64,000 nucleotides of DNA from Flavobacteriaceae bacterium MAR_2009_75 (GTDB lineage: Bacteria; Bacteroidota; Bacteroidia; Flavobacteriales; Flavobacteriaceae): the NCBI GenBank assembly GCA_002813285.1, contig PHTZ01000001.1:2417501-2481500 (forward strand), given 5' to 3'. Positions 27,968-34,733 of the stretch are shown in pieces (position 1 is the first letter of the stretch; each line of letters opens with the position of its first letter). The notes beneath the pieces are model-generated. The model saw only the letters and a list, made by a program, of their open reading frames with translations, was not told the origin of the DNA and did not search any database. A program made the position numbers and the translations under genes.

Positions 27968-29017
27968 CTAATCGTCAGAAAAAGAATTCCAACCCTGTGC
28001 GGTCAAAGGTATTTTAGTATTCGCCCGTGTAACCAAATGGGCTCCTTCGCTCACTTCTGTCATGTGGCCGATTACCGTAAGATTGGGGTTTCCCTTTATG
28101 TTGTCAAAATCTTTTTGGTCAATGGTAAATAGAAGTTCATAATCTTCACCACCACTGAGGGCCACCATCGTACCATCCATCTTGAACTCTTCACAACTAG
28201 AGATAACTGTGGGATCTAAAGGTATCTTTTCCTCAAAAAGATTGCAGCCCACATTACTGTGTTTTGTTAGATGTAATATTTCAGATGATAGTCCGTCACT
28301 AATATCGATCATTGAAGTGGGTTTCACCTCAAGTTTCTCCAAGAGTTCGACGATATCTTTTCGTGCCTCTGGTTTAAGTTGACGTTCGACAATATAAGAG
28401 TAGGGTGAAAGATCAGGTTGATTGTTGGGGTTCACCTTGAAAACTTCTTTTTCACGCTCTAAGACCTGAAGGCCCATATATGCGGCGCCCAAATCACCGC
28501 TAACGACTAAAAGGTCGTTAGGTTTTGCACCACTACGATAGGTGAGTTTTTCATCGGTAGCTTCCCCTAGAGCGGTAATGCTAATGAGCATACCTTTAGT
28601 AGATGAGGTCGTATCGCCACCTACCAGATCTACATTGAACATTTTACAGGCCAGCGCGATTCCATCATAGAGTTCTTCCAAGGCCTCCAACGGAAATCGG
28701 TTAGATACGGCTAGCGATACAGTAATTTGTGTAGCCTTCGCATTCATTGCGTATACATCGGAAAGGTTGACCATCACCGACTTGTAGCCTAAGTGTTTTA
28801 AGGGCATATAGCTGAGGTCAAAATGTACACCTTCTATCAATAGATCCGTGGTAAGAACGGTCTTATTAGAGGAGTAATCTAATACGGCGGCATCATCGCC
28901 TATGCCCTTTACCGATGATTTATGATTGAGGGAAAAGTTTTGGGTCAAATGTTCAATAAGTCCGAACTCGCCCAATTTTTCCAAAGCGGTTTTCTCTTGG
29001 TTCTTGTCTTCTAGCAT
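27968..29017 (-). CDS. thiL: Thiamine-monophosphate kinase
   Basis: ThiL phosphorylates thiamine monophosphate to the cofactor thiamine diphosphate. The 349-aa product (start MLEDKNQEKTALEKLG; a 15-residue upstream extension is not conserved-looking) has GIGDDAAVLDYS, TTDLLIEGVHFDLSYMPLKHLGYK, GGDTTSS and MIDISDGLSSEI, the Asp-rich metal/ATP sites of the PurM-like fold. No TPP riboswitch or other thiamine gene is next to it. Confidence 0.95.
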   Translation of the reverse strand: MLEDKNQEKTALEKLGEFGLIEHLTQNFSLNHKSSVKGIGDDAAVLDYSSNKTVLTTDLLIEGVHFDLSYMPLKHLGYKSVMVNLSDVYAMNAKATQITVSLAVSNRFPLEALEELYDGIALACKMFNVDLVGGDTTSSTKGMLISITALGEATDEKLTYRSGAKPNDLLVVSGDLGAAYMGLQVLEREKEVFKVNPNNQPDLSPYSYIVERQLKPEARKDIVELLEKLEVKPTSMIDISDGLSSEILHLTKHSNVGCNLFEEKIPLDPTVISSCEEFKMDGTMVALSGGEDYELLFTIDQKDFDNIKGNPNLTVIGHMTEVSEGAHLVTRANTKIPLTAQGWNSFSDD

Positions 29018-29199
29018 TCCGCAAAAATACGGGTATTTTCTGTGATAGGCACAAGCTCTCATTTACTGGGTCGAAGAATCGATATTTAAATTGAAAATAA
29101 TAATCGGGTATAATTTTTGATGTGTTTTCTTACAGGCCCACGGGTCATTTGTTCATTTTCAAGTAACTAAGTGATATATTTACATAAAAATTTATAGTT

Positions 29200-30450
29200 A
29201 TGAAAAACAGTACCTTGCTATATGCTATTGGCATTAGTTTTTTGGTCGCACTATCATCTTGCTCGTCAGATGGATCGGTCGATGATGTTGATATGGAGGA
29301 AGAGATGGACACCGATGAGGAAGCGGTTGGTTTTATGCCTTGCGAAAACGGAATGGCCGGTATCTACCCCTGCGCTGGCTATGACCTTATGGCAATTATG
29401 CCGCTTTCTGACTTTGATGCAAATTCTACCAATGATATTTGGGGGTGGACAGATGTCACCACAGACCGCGAATATGCGATATTAGGTCTTGATAACGGCA
29501 CTGCGTTTATTGACATTACCGACACCGAAAACCTAGTTTACTTGGGTAAATTGCCTACTGCTACCGACCCTAGTTCTTGGCGAGACATAAAAGTATATAG
29601 TAACCATGCATTCGTAGTCGCAGAGGCTAGCTCACATGGCATGCAGGTTTTTGACCTGACCCGGTTGCGAAATGTGGATAATGCGCCGGAGACCTTTGAT
29701 GCCGATGCGCGTTATACCGGTTTTGGTAATGCACACAATATTGTGATTAATGAAGAAAGCGGATTTGCCTATCCGGTAGGTACAGCTCGTAATGATGCTT
29801 TTTTAGGAGGAGCACATTTTATCGATATTTCTGACCCTACAAACCCAATAGGGGTAGGTGGTTATGCACAAAACGGTTACACCCATGATGCCCAGGTCGT
29901 AAACTATAACGGGCCTGATACAGATTATACCGGTCGGGAGATTTTTATAGGTGCCAATGAGAACCAAGTGGTTATTGCCGATGTAACCGATAAGAACAAT
30001 CCTTTTGAAATCAGTACGATTGAGTATCCAAATTTTAGGTACACCCACCAAGGATGGTTTACAGAAGACCAGCGCTATTTTATATTAGGGGATGAATTGG
30101 ATGAACAAAACTTCGGATTCAATTCACGAACTTTGTTTTTCGATTTTGCGGATTTAGACAACCCGGTTTTACATCAATCGTATTCTGGCCCTACTGCTGC
30201 AATTGACCATAATGGGTATGTGAAGGGTGATGAATATTTTCTATCGAATTATACAGCGGGTCTGCGGGTCTTAGATATTTCCGATATTGAGGGTGGGGCT
30301 ATTGTTGAGACTTCCTATTTCGATACTTACCCCAGTTCTGATAACACCAATTTTGATGGTGTATGGAGCAATTACCCCTATTTCTCAAGTGGAAATATTG
30401 TGTTGAGCGATATTGGTTCAGGACTCTTCATCGTTAAAAAAAATAATTGA
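29200..30450 (+). CDS. LVIVD-repeat lipoprotein (choice-of-anchor B family)
   Basis: The 416-aa product has a lipoprotein signal (lipobox LSSC) followed by an acidic linker. A propeller of LVIVD-type repeats follows (for example NGTAFIDITDTENLVYLGKL, HGMQVFDLTRLRNV, GAHFIDISDPTNPIGVGG, NQVVIADVTDKNNPFEI, AGLRVLDISDIEGG). The family is surface-exposed in Bacteroidota; its function is not established. It is first in a same-strand run with another propeller lipoprotein, an MbnP-family protein and a di-haem peroxidase. Confidence 0.85.
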   Translation: MKNSTLLYAIGISFLVALSSCSSDGSVDDVDMEEEMDTDEEAVGFMPCENGMAGIYPCAGYDLMAIMPLSDFDANSTNDIWGWTDVTTDREYAILGLDNGTAFIDITDTENLVYLGKLPTATDPSSWRDIKVYSNHAFVVAEASSHGMQVFDLTRLRNVDNAPETFDADARYTGFGNAHNIVINEESGFAYPVGTARNDAFLGGAHFIDISDPTNPIGVGGYAQNGYTHDAQVVNYNGPDTDYTGREIFIGANENQVVIADVTDKNNPFEISTIEYPNFRYTHQGWFTEDQRYFILGDELDEQNFGFNSRTLFFDFADLDNPVLHQSYSGPTAAIDHNGYVKGDEYFLSNYTAGLRVLDISDIEGGAIVETSYFDTYPSSDNTNFDGVWSNYPYFSSGNIVLSDIGSGLFIVKKNN

Positions 30451-30501
30451 TTTTTTAATCTTTTACACGAATAGGCTATCCAATATTTGGCAGAAGTATT
30501 C

Positions 30502-31851
30502 ATGAAGAAACGTATACGATTTAATGGTAGAGCTATATGTAATTGGGTTTTGGGTATCTTGATTATTTCTAGTTGCTCTGAGAATGATAATAGTCCAGAT
30601 AATGTCATTCCGATCAATTTTGATGTGAAAGCGGCAACTTACGGAGGTAGCTTGAATGATAATGCAAATTCTGTTGTAGCCACTTCTGATGGCGGTTATG
30701 CCGTGCTAGGGTATACACAAAGCAATGATGGGGATGTTTTGGGTAAAACCACTACAGATTTCGATTTTTGGATGTTAAAATTCGATAGTACGAGTAGCTT
30801 ACAGTGGCAGAAAAGTTATGGTGGTAGCGGTAATGATAGGGGCAATGCTTTGATACAGACTTCGGATGGAGGTTATGCGCTATTGGGTTTTAGTGAAAGC
30901 AATGATGGTGATGTTACCGAAAATGCCGGGGCTCAAGATTATTGGTTGGCCAAAACTGATGGTAACGGAAATCTCGCATGGCAGAAATCTTTTGGATTTA
31001 AAGGGCGAGATGAAGGCATCTCCCTAATTCAGACCAACGATTCCGGTTTTCTTTTAGTGGGGGTTTTAGATGTTACGGCATCCGAGGGTCAAGGTATTGT
31101 TACGGCAAAAAATCACGCCGGGGGCGATTATTGGGCAATTAAACTGTCAGAAGATGGTGTTTTGCAGTGGAGCCAATACTTTGGCGGAACTTTTACCGAT
31201 ACTGCTTATGGTGTCGTCGAGCTTGACGGGGGCGGATTTCTTATTGCAGGTTCTTCTGATAGTTTTGATGTTGACATTAGTAATAATAAAGGCACTTATG
31301 ATTTTTGGGTAGTGCGCATTTCCGATACCGGGCAGTTATTATGGGAAAAAAATTATGGCGGTAACGAAATTGATGAACCCCATAGTATCATTCCAACGAT
31401 CGATGGTAATTTTTTGATTGTTGGCGATACCAGAAGCGCAGATATCGATATAGCTTCGAACAATGGTGCTGCCGATGTTTGGGCGGTAAAAATAAATCCT
31501 GAAGGGGAAATTATTTGGGAGATTGCCTACGGTGGCAGCGGCTTTGATGCTGGTAGGGGAGTTGAAGCAATTAAAGATGGTGGTTTTTTGCTTGTAGGAA
31601 GCTCAAGAAGTGGTGATAAAGATGTTACAGAAAATAATGGTCAGAACGATGCTTGGCTTATCAAGATTGATGCGGATGGAATTCTAGAGTGGGAGCAATC
31701 GATAGGTGGATCTGAAATTGAAGTGGGTTATGGTGTTATAGAACTCGCAAACGGAACAATAGTTGCAGTAGGAGAGTCGGCAAGCTCAGACTTTGATGTA
31801 TCGGTGAATAAAGGTTTTACAGATGTTCTGATAATTTCCGTTGAAAAATAA
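30502..31851 (+). CDS. Seven-repeat beta-propeller lipoprotein
   Basis: The product is 449 aa from the start MKKRIRFNGRA; a TTG five codons earlier is less likely. The lipobox is ISSC. Seven repeats of about 55-60 residues follow, each with a core like YGGSGNDRGNALIQTSDGGY, then A-LLG-S-SNDGDV, then DYWLAK-D-G-L-WQK. Seven blades predict a closed beta-propeller. I do not know its ligand. It lies 51 bp after the LVIVD gene and 31 bp before the MbnP gene, so it is probably in their operon. Confidence 0.8.
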   Translation: MKKRIRFNGRAICNWVLGILIISSCSENDNSPDNVIPINFDVKAATYGGSLNDNANSVVATSDGGYAVLGYTQSNDGDVLGKTTTDFDFWMLKFDSTSSLQWQKSYGGSGNDRGNALIQTSDGGYALLGFSESNDGDVTENAGAQDYWLAKTDGNGNLAWQKSFGFKGRDEGISLIQTNDSGFLLVGVLDVTASEGQGIVTAKNHAGGDYWAIKLSEDGVLQWSQYFGGTFTDTAYGVVELDGGGFLIAGSSDSFDVDISNNKGTYDFWVVRISDTGQLLWEKNYGGNEIDEPHSIIPTIDGNFLIVGDTRSADIDIASNNGAADVWAVKINPEGEIIWEIAYGGSGFDAGRGVEAIKDGGFLLVGSSRSGDKDVTENNGQNDAWLIKIDADGILEWEQSIGGSEIEVGYGVIELANGTIVAVGESASSDFDVSVNKGFTDVLIISVEK

Positions 31852-31882
31852 TTTTTAAATACCAATTGTTATAAAAATTAAC

Positions 31883-32656
31883 ATGAAGAGCATATTTCCT
31901 TTTCTTTTACTGTTGGCGACTTTAGGGGTGAGCTGTTCTGATGACGATGTTTCTGGCCAAGTTGCAGCACAGGTGAGTTTACGGTTTAATCATAATTGGG
32001 ATGGAGAAGAGTTTCAGACATCCGATTTTAATACCGTTGGGTATGCAAATCTAAATGGAGAAAAAATGAGTGTTGAGCGACTTCGCTACCTTATTTCAGA
32101 CGTTACTTTCGAAAGTTCAGATGGCAGTAGTTTTACAGTAGAAGGCTATAACCTCGTTGACCTGACCAACGAAAAGGGATTATCTTATCAACTTTCAGAT
32201 AGCGTGCCAGTCGGTAATTACACCAATGTATATTTCACGTTTGGTTTTGATAATGATAATAATCAAAACGGAATCTATCCTGACTTGAATACCGCCTTAT
32301 GGAATGTTCCCGAAATGTTGGGCGGAGGTTATCATTATATGCAATTGGAAGGTAAGTTCATAGACTCTACCCAGACCGAAACTGGCTATCAATATCATGC
32401 CATTAGAGCTGTAGATAACTCTGGCGAAGAACTAGTATTTGAAGACACTTTTTTTCAAGTTGATTTAGGGCCGGTGGAAATTCAACAAAATTCGACTATT
32501 GCAATTTCAATGAACATTGCAGAATGGTTTAAAAATCCGAATCAATGGAATTTGAACCAATTACATTCGATGATGATGCCAAATTTTGAGGCTCAAAAAG
32601 CAATTTCACAAAATGGTAAAACCGTTTTCGGCTTAGAAGGGGTCTTCCAAGAATAA
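31883..32656 (+). CDS. MbnP-family lipoprotein (copper-associated)
   Basis: The 257-aa product has a lipoprotein signal with lipobox GVSC (Cys18). The mature part fits the MbnP family: VSLRFNHNWDGEEF, the central RLRYLISDVTFESSDGSSF, VEGYNLVDLTNEKGLS, FGFDNDNNQNG, ALWNVPEMLGGGYHYMQLEGKF and a histidine in YQYHAIRA. In characterised systems MbnP is modified at a tryptophan by its di-haem partner MbnH and binds copper. Tryptophans here are at 39, 140, 215 and 222. The neighbouring di-haem peroxidase 14 bp downstream supports the pairing; copper binding here is inferred. Confidence 0.82.
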   Translation: MKSIFPFLLLLATLGVSCSDDDVSGQVAAQVSLRFNHNWDGEEFQTSDFNTVGYANLNGEKMSVERLRYLISDVTFESSDGSSFTVEGYNLVDLTNEKGLSYQLSDSVPVGNYTNVYFTFGFDNDNNQNGIYPDLNTALWNVPEMLGGGYHYMQLEGKFIDSTQTETGYQYHAIRAVDNSGEELVFEDTFFQVDLGPVEIQQNSTIAISMNIAEWFKNPNQWNLNQLHSMMMPNFEAQKAISQNGKTVFGLEGVFQE

Positions 32657-32670
32657 ATCATTTAATACTG

Positions 32671-33741
32671 ATGAAGCGACCTATTATATTGGTTCTATTA
32701 ATTATGCTATCGGTTGCTTGCTCTAAAAGTGAGGGCGGTGAACCACCGGAATACACAGCCACGCCTCTTTCGCTCGATGTACCTGCTTTTTTTCAAGAGA
32801 ATATTTTAGCCCCGGTTATACCGATTACCAATCCGCTGACCGAAGAAGGGGTGGCTTTGGGCAAAAAGCTGTTTTTCGACCCTATTCTCTCTGCTGATAA
32901 TTCAATATCATGCGCCGAATGTCATGCGCCATCAAGTGCTTTTACCGATACTGACCGCTTCAGTGATGGAGTTAATGGTGTATTGGGAAATAGAAATGCA
33001 ATGCCCCTTTTCAATCTTGCATGGAATTTTGATGAACGTTTTTTCTGGGATGGCTCTGCGACCAGTTTAGAAGACCAGGTTTTTCACCCCATTACCGATG
33101 CTACAGAAATGGCTAATACGTGGGATAAAGTTATAAGCGCGCTGGAGGCAAGCAGTGAATATACCGATATGTTTTTAAGCGCTTTTGGGGAAGGTAAAAT
33201 TGATAGCCTCAAAGTAGCTCGAGCCATAGCCCAATTTGAGCGTACCTTGATTTCCGGAAACTCAAAGTTTGATAAATTTTTGGCGGGAGAACTAGAACTT
33301 ACCGAAGCCGAACTCAATGGTCGTGATATTTTTATGGATGAGACTCGTGGCGATTGCTTTCATTGCCATGGCAACCCCAACAACCCTTTATGGACCGATA
33401 ACCTCTTTCACAATAATGGTTTAGATAGCACCTTTGTAGATTTAGGTCTGGGCAGGTTAACGGGTGACCCGGCCGATAACGGTAAATTTAAGAGTCCTTC
33501 ATTGCGAAATCTTGCCTTTACCGCTCCCTATATGCATGACGGCAGATTCGCTACTTTAGAAGAGGTTATCAACCATTATAGTGAAGGTTTGCAAAATTCA
33601 GCAACTGTAGACCCGTTGATGAAGAAAGTGGCCCAGGGCGGGGTTCAACTCACTGAACAAGATAAGACAGATTTAAAGGCCTTTTTATTGACCCTCTCTG
33701 ATGATGAGTTTATTTCTAATACTGCATTTCGAGAGCAATAG
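32671..33741 (+). CDS. Di-haem cytochrome c peroxidase / MauG-MbnH-like lipoprotein
   Basis: The 356-aa product has a lipobox (SVAC), then two c-type haem sites, CAECH (in SCAECHAPSSAF) and CFHCH (in DCFHCHGNP), the pattern of bacterial di-haem peroxidases. Other family marks are EGVALGKKLFFDP, SLRNLAFTAPYMHDGRFATLEEVINHYSEG. Members either reduce hydrogen peroxide or, like MauG and MbnH, oxidise residues in a partner protein. Its position directly after the MbnP gene favours the second role; this is an inference. It is the last gene of the run. Confidence 0.9.
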   Translation: MKRPIILVLLIMLSVACSKSEGGEPPEYTATPLSLDVPAFFQENILAPVIPITNPLTEEGVALGKKLFFDPILSADNSISCAECHAPSSAFTDTDRFSDGVNGVLGNRNAMPLFNLAWNFDERFFWDGSATSLEDQVFHPITDATEMANTWDKVISALEASSEYTDMFLSAFGEGKIDSLKVARAIAQFERTLISGNSKFDKFLAGELELTEAELNGRDIFMDETRGDCFHCHGNPNNPLWTDNLFHNNGLDSTFVDLGLGRLTGDPADNGKFKSPSLRNLAFTAPYMHDGRFATLEEVINHYSEGLQNSATVDPLMKKVAQGGVQLTEQDKTDLKAFLLTLSDDEFISNTAFREQ

Positions 33742-33744
33742 CGG

Positions 33745-34698
33745 TTAAGCAAACTTTAAAAAATCTTTTTGCCCTGAAAGCCTAGCGTATTTTTCTAGCA
33801 CCAAGAAGCAGAGTAAATCTTCCCTCTTTCGATTTTTAAACTGTGCTACATGTCGATGAGCGTTATCTATGATATATTGGGCTTTCTTGGGGTGCTGAAT
33901 ATAATAATTCATCTTATCTTCCATATTCGAGAAATCGGGTTTTACTTCAACATAATGTTTTTCGGCTTCGAGAACCCCTTCCATAAACCAAGTTTCGCGA
34001 GTGGGCTTGGGCATGATACATAACGAGTTACTAGACATGGCCCATTTAAGGTTCGTAGCAACATCAAAACCTTCGAGACATGCAATAAACTTATGGTCAA
34101 GTTGGGTATTTATGGCCATAAATTCTTTCGTGAACTGCCCATCGGTGTTTTTACCGTCCGATAGGCCAACATCAAAGCTAGGGTTGTCCCAGAATTTAAT
34201 AACGAAATTTCTTCGCTGCTCTTGGTGCGACCTGCCCCGCCAAACGACCGAATCCATTTTATCTGTAAAAGATTTAGTGTCTTTCACCCATTTAAAATGC
34301 CGGCGCTTATTCAATTTAAAAAGTACCGAATTGGCATTTTTGTCGTTCAGGGGCCTGGCCTTGAAAAGTGTGGGATTTGGATTGATATGTAGTTCATCAC
34401 CAAAATGATATGCAAATTTGGTATGCGGTGAGAAGTAATGTAGAAATTCTTTTAGATCTAAATAATAACCCGTGCCTTTGTTTCGCTTATAGTCTTTAAC
34501 CGCGATGGCATCTGCAGATAGTTCGAAATCAGAGTCCGATTTTAAATAATAATCAACTCTTTGTTGCAGATACCCGGCATAACATTTGGCTTGATAGGCC
34601 TTTAATTTTTTGTAGTTGTTTTTGAAATAGAACTCGGGTAGCGCGTTTTTCCCAAAGTTCTTGGCATAGTAATAAGCGTTTATGTCGTCTAGTCGCAT
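33745..34698 (-). CDS. Glycosyltransferase family 90 (CAP10/LpsA-like)
   Basis: The 317-aa product resembles CAP10-type sugar transferases of family GT90 (lipopolysaccharide core or capsule). Segments include SVVWRGRSHQEQRRNFV, the central YLDLKEFLHYFSPHTKF and the C-terminal KYVEVKPDFSNMEDKMNYY-like region (H-V-E-V-K-P-D-F). I start at the ATG giving MRLDDINAYY. A TTG ten codons upstream is the last three bases of the -7 box TAACTTTG (34726-34733), so it is not the start. The acceptor is unknown; no other LPS gene is nearby. Confidence 0.75.
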   Translation of the reverse strand: MRLDDINAYYYAKNFGKNALPEFYFKNNYKKLKAYQAKCYAGYLQQRVDYYLKSDSDFELSADAIAVKDYKRNKGTGYYLDLKEFLHYFSPHTKFAYHFGDELHINPNPTLFKARPLNDKNANSVLFKLNKRRHFKWVKDTKSFTDKMDSVVWRGRSHQEQRRNFVIKFWDNPSFDVGLSDGKNTDGQFTKEFMAINTQLDHKFIACLEGFDVATNLKWAMSSNSLCIMPKPTRETWFMEGVLEAEKHYVEVKPDFSNMEDKMNYYIQHPKKAQYIIDNAHRHVAQFKNRKREDLLCFLVLEKYARLSGQKDFLKFA

Positions 34699-34725
34699 GT
34701 GTCGTATGACTGATGAAGTGGTTGT

Positions 34726-34733
34726 CAAAGTTA
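34726..34733 (-). promoter_or_regulatory. -7 box of the GT90 gene
   Basis: TAACTTTG on the reverse strand lies 27 bp before the chosen ATG. Its TTG is in frame with the gene and creates a false upstream start. Confidence 0.55.

Follow-up and report, generated by a model that had tools for sequence, protein, structure and literature searches.

Background

A stretch of 64,000 nucleotides from Flavobacteriaceae bacterium MAR_2009_75 (contig PHTZ01000001.1, positions 2,417,501 to 2,481,500 of the forward strand), hereafter called the window, raises the question of why an MbnP gene and the gene of its putative di-haem modifying enzyme should stand next to the genes of two propeller lipoproteins, and whether the four products belong together. 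A 2013 genome-mining study (PMC3621798) describes the MbnP-MbnH pair as conserved far beyond the methanobactin producers, with unclear roles there. What is described here beyond this known distribution is that one subtype of the pair is tied to fixed propeller partners; no literature linking MbnP-MbnH to propellers, TIGR04312 or LVIVD was found in a search outside which the subscription journals mostly lay. Such fixed partners, together with the hints of block transfer, of an exchanged pair and of a matching histidine absence presented below, make the purpose of the pair testable, and the named genera available for testing include Winogradskyella, Tenacibaculum, Polaribacter and Algibacter. 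The four genes are the following:

29200..30450, + strand: ANCB, a TIGR04312 'choice-of-anchor B' / LVIVD lipoprotein, seven-bladed propeller, 416 amino acids (aa)
30502..31851 (ATG), + strand: PROP, a seven-repeat propeller lipoprotein, 449 aa; alternative TTG start at 30487
31883..32656, + strand: MbnP-family lipoprotein of the GGGYH subtype, 257 aa; PF20243 at 112.3 bits (cut-off 27)
32671..33741, + strand: MauG/MbnH-type di-haem enzyme, lipoprotein, 356 aa; CCP_MauG at 198 bits

The intergenic gaps are 51 bp (36 bp if PROP starts at the TTG), 31 bp and 14 bp. A preliminary description of this DNA had proposed four closely spaced genes for two propellers, an MbnP and a di-haem enzyme, which was borne out by the open reading frames (ORFs), the family matches, the structural model of ANCB and the seven repeats of PROP. 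Its claim that all four products are lipoproteins agrees with our own reading of a signal peptide and a lipobox cysteine at each N-terminus, i.e. ALSSC in ANCB (Cys21), IISSC in PROP, LGVSC in MbnP and LSVAC in the enzyme; a lipobox script caught three of the four, missing that of MbnP. Taken as a whole, and with about an even chance of being right, we read the locus as an operon of outer-membrane-anchored proteins, in which an MbnH-type enzyme would mature a copper MbnP beside the metallo-propeller ANCB and its partner PROP.

Conservation of the four-gene unit

We have examined 149 genomes, 90 of which belong to the family of the window (Flavobacteriaceae), the window genome included. PF20243 is present in 77 of the 149 genomes, 39 of them among the 90 family genomes. 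Orthologues of PROP (E < 1e-90) were found in 42 of the 90 family genomes, every one adjoining an ANCB gene; the order ANCB-PROP-MbnP-enzyme occurs at 29 of these 42 loci, hence in 29/90 family genomes, and ANCB-PROP alone at the other 13, hereafter the pair-only loci. Order, strand and tight spacing are repeated in all 29 four-gene loci fetched, with median gaps of 10, 6 and 7 bp (a di-haem ORF of more than 400 aa in L039 was excluded from the gap counts, as well as from the trees and the lipobox counts). Among the 42 genomes that have ANCB-PROP, 30 encode an MbnP of any kind, as against 9 of the 48 that lack it (Fisher p = 5.6e-7, relatedness ignored), and one pair-only genome, G076, has a classical MbnP located elsewhere. 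Furthermore, thiL lies upstream and the suf genes lie downstream of all 29 four-gene loci and of 11 of the 13 pair-only loci, with one or two intervening genes in a few cases.

The recurrence of the unit exceeds chance, and the expectation that its order would be conserved in other Bacteroidota and the propellers would co-occur with MbnP was upheld in 29/90 family genomes as well as in 76/80 loci of named genomes, where all four genes follow one another in this order; the other four loci, three of which are short stretches, yielded no enzyme gene. This latter set is biased to four-gene loci, because it was retrieved with the window's own PROP as the query and comprises the best 80 of 117 loci. 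On the other hand, the 13 loci with both propellers and no MbnP beside them do not favour copper capture, a role that had been suggested.

In a sample of 325 genomes of the class, TIGR04312 scores above its cut-off in 173, and the four-gene order was seen, among the matches listed, in three members of the window's family (G461, G419 and the window genome itself); outside the family, no TIGR04312 gene next to an MbnP was noticed by eye among the matches listed. The closest MbnPs outside the family, designated f48, adjoin an enzyme gene, accompanied by the protein f20 at 9 and by f16 at 6 of the 10 loci fetched, none of which contains a propeller gene. Classical MbnP-enzyme loci are often bracketed by f16 and f20 too (e.g. 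L075:8061-8483 and L075:4940-5956); f16 is small and carries a CDGKC motif, f20 has 300-340 aa and a Cys-rich start, and neither has a Pfam match.

Ancestry and probable block transfer

On the unrooted PROP tree, the four-gene and the pair-only loci are separated by a single change (support 100/99); therefore, the 29 four-gene loci are not 29 independent cases. In the window's genus, the locus and its surroundings are in conflict. The tree of thiL+sufB+sufC places this genus inside the pair-only clade (100/99), and a constraint joining it to the four-gene rows lowers the log-likelihood by 52.6 units and was rejected by the approximately unbiased (AU) test (p = 2.7e-4); the PROP tree, on the other hand, places it among the four-gene rows (100/99), and forcing the window's PROP into the pair clade was likewise rejected (p = 4e-10; p = 1.3e-4 on 25 rows). 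The MbnP of the window belongs to a clade of 24 four-gene rows (99), and the enzyme of the window to one of 30 (96). The simplest reading of this conflict would be that PROP, MbnP and the enzyme were transferred as a block, replacing the resident PROP. In addition, the PROP of G088 groups with the four-gene rows, and its MbnP and its enzyme belong to the classical clade (99 on either tree), where they adjoin those of G080 (94 and 95), so that a different MbnP-enzyme pair occupies the same slot.

The thiL+sufB+sufC tree and the 25-row tests of PROP and ANCB cover 25 of the 42 loci, and the groups for the AU tests were defined after the trees had been inspected. The MbnP and enzyme trees, the ANCB tree with outgroups and the first flank test were quick trees with support from the Shimodaira-Hasegawa-like approximate likelihood ratio test only, and just the ANCB copy nearest PROP entered the comparisons and trees of ANCB.

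Several results complicate this picture. The window's genus leans to the pair rows on the ANCB tree, yet neither placement was rejected (p = 0.078 for the four-gene placement, 0.31 for the pair clade), and the ANCB tree with outgroups was disturbed by long branches and gave no usable root. Six four-gene MbnPs do not join the main clade of 24, f48 proteins being placed in between. Moreover, in an earlier flank test on quick trees, holding all four-gene rows together was not rejected (p = 0.47; 0.38 without G088); we have weighted the 25-locus test above it, because the log-likelihood gaps of the earlier test (1.8 and 9.8) are mutually inconsistent. On balance, ancestry accounts for much, not all, of the recurrence of the four genes, and since parts of the unit were apparently swapped as blocks, cooperation of the four products is suggested.

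The propeller PROP

PROP contains exactly seven GG repeats at a spacing of ~58 aa, and its alignment A4 matched CylK chains in the PDB (7fh6, E = 1.4e-34). One site in it distinguishes the two kinds of loci:

31006..31014, + strand: R169-D170-E171 of PROP, the site reading H-D-H in the pair-only orthologues (42-locus comparison)

This HxH motif is present at 13/13 pair-only and 0/29 four-gene loci, a further histidine at 13/13 versus 6/29, and one histidine is kept in 42/42. The outer two motif positions are occupied by 11 and 10 different residues in the four-gene PROPs, which therefore looks like relaxed constraint, and none of the PROPs of named genomes that could be read by pattern (75/80) has both histidines. 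The conserved histidines suggest that the pair-only PROP may bind a metal, and we read the contrast as a putative metal site that was given up where MbnP is present, as if the two were mutually exclusive. If the transfer took place as proposed, then in the window's genus an HxH-bearing PROP was replaced by one without the motif as MbnP arrived. It tells against this reading that the contrast amounts in effect to one or two events, because four-gene versus pair-only is one change on a tree without a known root, and that its direction can be argued for the window's genus alone.

This evidence bears on the strongest alternative, according to which MbnP and the enzyme are an ordinary copper/redox module in a stable slot beside unrelated propellers, their co-occurrence resulting from ancestry and co-transcription. 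The single syntenic place between thiL and suf and the one change on the PROP tree are what such a slot would produce, and classical and f48 MbnP-enzyme pairs do exist elsewhere without propellers; however, PROP, MbnP and the enzyme agree with one another against the flanking genes in the window's genus, G088 has a different pair in the same slot, and the conserved histidines of PROP are missing exactly where the MbnP-enzyme pair is present. We consider this explanation rather unlikely.

As to the family of PROP, the closest solved structures in the profile search are CylK and a series of chains named Bagel or cell surface protein; no credible family was returned by a Pfam scan, its matches to DUF2064, DUF1391 and ASST being judged spurious.

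The propeller ANCB

ANCB matches TIGR04312 with 580 bits (cut-off 100) over positions 1-364 of the 364 of the model, and LVIVD with 24.2 bits, and its AlphaFold model (AF2 predicted local distance difference test, pLDDT, 89.6) is a seven-bladed propeller. Five of its residues stand out:

29734..29736, + strand: His179, inner strand start of blade 3; 62/62, 16/17 further homologues (the other a gap), 21/21 in alignment A8
29884..29886, + strand: His229, inner strand start of blade 4; 62/62, 16/17 (the other a gap), invariant in A8
30046..30048, + strand: His283, inner strand of blade 5; 62/62, 17/17, invariant in A8
30094..30096, + strand: Glu299, second strand end of blade 5; 62/62, 17/17, invariant in A8
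30208..30210, + strand: His337, inner strand start of blade 6; 62/62, 17/17, invariant in A8

Alignment A8 consists of 21 sequences (6 close and 15 other rows, L125 and one L122 ORF excluded) with identity down to 25%, and five of its ten invariant columns are the four histidines and Glu299; as a rough guide, the chance of at least four histidines among ten invariant columns drawn at random from ANCB is 1.1e-5. According to the model, the inner strands of blades 3-6 begin at residues 180, 230, 281 and 338 and are opened by the four histidines, which lie together with Glu299 at one end of the central channel.

The top Foldseek match of the model was 5hrm, a phosphotriesterase of Sphingobium (E = 7e-13; next other protein 9.6e-10), which was also the top match of profile A8 in the PDB (E = 9.4e-7). 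We take the axial metal ligands of the Sphingobium enzyme to be Glu201, His258, His389, Glu407 and His475. In alignments to 5ioj, His229 of ANCB falls on His258 and the His179 column on His204 or His389 depending on the alignment, a pairing made ambiguous by the repeats; His283...Glu299 of ANCB resembles His389...Glu407 in spacing only. With VIA-align, ANCB against 5hrm gave a Z score of 30.5, equal to that of many WD40 proteins, and the structural matches of ANCB to WD40 proteins span residues 58-416.

Since four histidines and a glutamate are invariant and the best structural match is a metallo-hydrolase, ANCB is likelier to be a metalloprotein than a scaffold, and is probably one, with a metal presumably bound in the modelled channel. 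The earlier suggestion that the propellers serve as scaffold or receptor thus lost ground for ANCB, given this invariant set on the inner strands, and the members of TIGR04312, a large family, may be flagged as probable metalloproteins. One finding weakens the case, namely that the profile score of 5hrm is the sum of weak repeats, with a best single stretch at an independent E-value of 0.25. The His ring is equally conserved in loci without MbnP, so that ANCB can do without MbnP, which counts against the proposed joint role of the four products; the ANCBs of four-gene and pair-only loci are not told apart by any column of their alignment.

The same histidines invite another explanation, i.e. 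that the MauG-like enzyme and MbnP, as a copper donor, mature ANCB into a surface enzyme, as is thought of SCO1 and MauG for MtoX. Two articles report that mtoX clusters with SCO1/senC and mauG in a conserved, operon-like arrangement, four conserved histidines being proposed for the copper of MtoX (PMC5739008), and that a model of SELENBP1, the human relative of MtoX, is a seven-bladed propeller whose cavity holds the copper ligands (PMC10362175). ANCB likewise carries a four-His set on its inner strands; however, this set is unchanged in the 13 pair-only loci, no column of ANCB splits the two groups, and among the matches listed by Foldseek and VIA, which are mostly WD40 propellers with 5hrm at the top, neither sequence nor fold ties ANCB to MtoX. 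We consider such maturation of ANCB unlikely. A modification of the WGW motif of ANCB by the enzyme was set aside, as W81 and W83 are present in 62/62 sequences whether the enzyme is present or not.

MbnP and the di-haem enzyme

The model of the window's MbnP (AF2 pLDDT 91.0) was matched by six chains of 7L6G, the MbnP of M. trichosporium, as the sole Foldseek matches at E <= 0.001 (E = 4.7e-8). At the sequence level, the single MbnP found no relative in the PDB, the mixed MbnP profile A2 matched mainly signal peptides, and the profile A5 of classical MbnPs matched 7L6G at E = 0.007. M-x-W-x-W and a histidine are invariant in the classical flavobacterial MbnPs (12/12), where they are aligned to MAWNW and VHVG of 7L6G. 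In the MbnP paper (PNAS 2021), the first Trp of WxW is reportedly oxidised to kynurenine (Kyn), with His, Met, solvent and Kyn at the copper; the Met ligand we take, judging from conservation, to be the one two residues before this Trp. The corresponding and other conserved positions of the window's MbnP are listed below, the four-gene counts comprising 30 proteins with G088 excluded:

32300..32302, + strand: Trp140, first Trp of WxW and predicted kynurenine; 28/30 four-gene, in the classical first-Trp column
32333..32335, + strand: His151, invariant in the GGGYH subtype; 30/30 four-gene, 12/12 f48, 0/11 classical
32396..32398, + strand: His172, invariant in 46/46 (alignment A3); 30/30 four-gene
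32576..32578, + strand: Met232; 30/30 four-gene, 12/12 f48, 3/11 classical

If these roles of Trp, His and Met apply here, then the modified residue has been kept and the Met replaced, candidates for the replacement being His151 or Met232. The model places His151 and His172 at neighbouring hairpin ends (strands 153-160 and 166-173), which is suggestive only of a copper site. Conversion of Trp140 to kynurenine and copper as the metal of MbnP are thus predictions from these alignments.

A number of observations argue against them. The Trp140 column is Phe in L054 and L104 (G010 and G419); the second Trp of WxW is lost in the window, where the motif reads W-N-V, this position being Val in 24/30 and Trp in 6 four-gene MbnPs; and the Met two before position 140 is present in 0/30. 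Trp222, conserved in 30/30 four-gene and 12/12 f48 proteins, could be the substrate of the enzyme instead of Trp140. Finally, the window MbnP gave no match to TIGR04052 (MbnP_like_WxW, cut-off 140 bits) even at E <= 10, and two classical-type relatives scored 54-55 bits against this model. The proposed identity with the known MbnP-MbnH pairs accordingly stands for the fold, which is that of 7L6G, and fails for the motif, the window's MbnP not being of the WxW type, without a TIGR04052 match and with the second Trp and the Met lost.

Variation at these columns goes further. L067, one of the 24 Val-type MbnPs, has an additional Trp two before Trp140, and the f48 MbnPs retain both Trp of WxW. GGGYH-type MbnPs of other families (L089, L090, L091, L101, L102 and L110) carry Met in the column of the first Trp and retain the second Trp alone, the reverse of the window's subtype.

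The MauG/MbnH pattern comprises two CxxCH motifs, a Tyr replacing the Met at the six-coordinate haem and the absence of the distal His. The enzyme has these features at the following positions:

32911..32925, + strand: haem motif 1, CAECH, residues 81-85; C, C and H in 43/43
33355..33369, + strand: haem motif 2, CFHCH, residues 229-233; C, C and H in 43/43
33577..33579, + strand: Tyr303, in the column of the Met of the bacterial cytochrome c peroxidase (bCCP) 1iqc; Tyr in 41/43, Met in 0, aligned to the Tyr of 6e1c

The distal position 101 is His in 0/43 enzymes (columns matched to 6e1c and 1iqc), and the best PDB match is 6e1c ("di-heme enzyme", E = 2.2e-54), which we take to be the MbnH of M. 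trichosporium, ahead of bCCPs and MauG. The scores for TIGR04039 (MbnH; 250.8 bits, cut-off 362.85) and for the MauG model remain under their cut-offs, which is a point against the assignment, and those of five comparison enzymes are likewise under both (216-264 bits for TIGR04039). By its ligand columns, the enzyme is of the MauG/MbnH type and, as had been anticipated, lacks the ligand set of an ordinary peroxidase. A di-haem peroxidase for peroxide detoxification, with MbnP as a partner without a copper role, would fit membership in the CCP_MauG family and the altered copper Met and WxW of MbnP, yet is very improbable given the absence of the distal His in 43/43 and Tyr instead of Met in 41/43, like 6e1c and not 1iqc.

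Cellular location

Acidic residues after the lipobox cysteine are described in PMC5080379 as a lipoprotein export signal of Bacteroidetes. At the four-gene loci, 25 of the 26 MbnPs with a script-found lipobox (29 examined) have at least two acidic residues at positions +2 to +6; the same pattern was found in 17/24 PROPs (29 examined), 10/19 enzymes (29) and 12/17 ANCBs (38). Sorting tails of the type IX secretion system were seen in 11 of the 47 ANCB homologues scanned (alignment A7; 47 of 53, six long ANCBs excluded). Taken together, these signals and tails support the outer surface for ANCB and MbnP, and less so for the enzyme; the products are predicted to be surface-exposed.

Discussion

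In the reading we favour, the four genes would be transcribed as one operon and their products, probably facing outwards, would be anchored in the outer membrane and may contact one another. The di-haem enzyme would use peroxide to oxidise a Trp of MbnP, most likely Trp140, to kynurenine, and the matured MbnP would hold one Cu(I) via His172 together with His151 or Met232 in place of the lost Met. ANCB would be a metallo-propeller with PROP as its partner propeller, and the MbnP-MbnH pair would have taken over the metal-binding task of PROP so as to serve the ANCB-PROP unit. It does not favour this scheme that no copper gene lies within the four-gene unit. A wider proposal, possible though doubtful, is that TIGR04312 comprises unrecognised surface metallo-propeller enzymes with a four-His-plus-Glu site; that the task of PROP's His cluster passed in one lineage to a kynurenine-copper MbnP that a MauG-like enzyme generates; and that PROP-MbnP-enzyme is now a replaceable cassette beside ANCB.

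Among known systems, the MbnP-MbnH pair of methanobactin operons (Methylosinus trichosporium OB3b) is alike in having adjacent genes, the MbnP fold, an enzyme with Tyr and without the distal His, and the first Trp and the His. The unit in the window, in contrast, lacks the second Trp and the Met, has the invariant His151 and Met232, is tied to two propeller genes, and is without methanobactin or TonB genes. MopE/SACCP and CorA/CorB of methanotrophs likewise place a kynurenine copper protein beside a MauG-like enzyme; CorA and MopE are described in PMC3912023 as having two His plus Kyn, the copper of CorA having two His with the Kyn nearby. The candidate His151/His172 site would resemble the two-His copper site of CorA. 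The mtoX-SCO1/senC-mauG cluster also combines a four-His enzyme, a copper-handling protein and a MauG-like enzyme, with a propeller fold by way of the relative SELENBP1; the window's unit differs from it in having MbnP instead of SCO1, two propellers and lipoproteins, and no ANCB-MtoX link among the matches listed.

The haloalkylphosphorus hydrolase/phosphotriesterase of Sphingobium TCM1 (5hrm, 5ioj), the top structural and profile match of ANCB, is described in the title of its structure as having a binuclear metal centre in a seven-bladed propeller, yet its identity to ANCB is 15-17%. BtuG of Bacteroides (vitamin B12) represents surface lipoproteins tied to metal-cofactor uptake in Bacteroidota. 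Its fold is a propeller. The unit in the window differs from it in being without a TonB-dependent transporter.

Neighbouring genes

The genes flanking the unit at either side are on the opposite strand:

27968-29062, strand opposite to the unit: thiL-like gene (name by our own reading), AIRS domain
33745-34728, - strand: Glyco_transf_90 gene, flanking the enzyme gene
from 34899 onward: suf genes, with Fe-S_biosyn, SUFBD_core and ABC domains

The Glyco_transf_90 gene between the enzyme gene and sufA was seen in the window and G001 only, and not in the other 27 mapped four-gene loci. A small gene for a lipoprotein-like protein of ~140 aa without a Pfam match (f10, e.g. L033:14001-14417), absent from the window, occurs in 29 of the 61 stretches that were clustered, where it usually separates sufB from sufC, and a metallo-beta-lactamase-fold gene (f19) occurs in the same sufB/sufC region in 7 of the 61. 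In four pair-only loci (L041, L044, L048 and L049), thiL is adjoined by a membrane gene (f24) which, by our own reading, resembles ZIP metal transporters.

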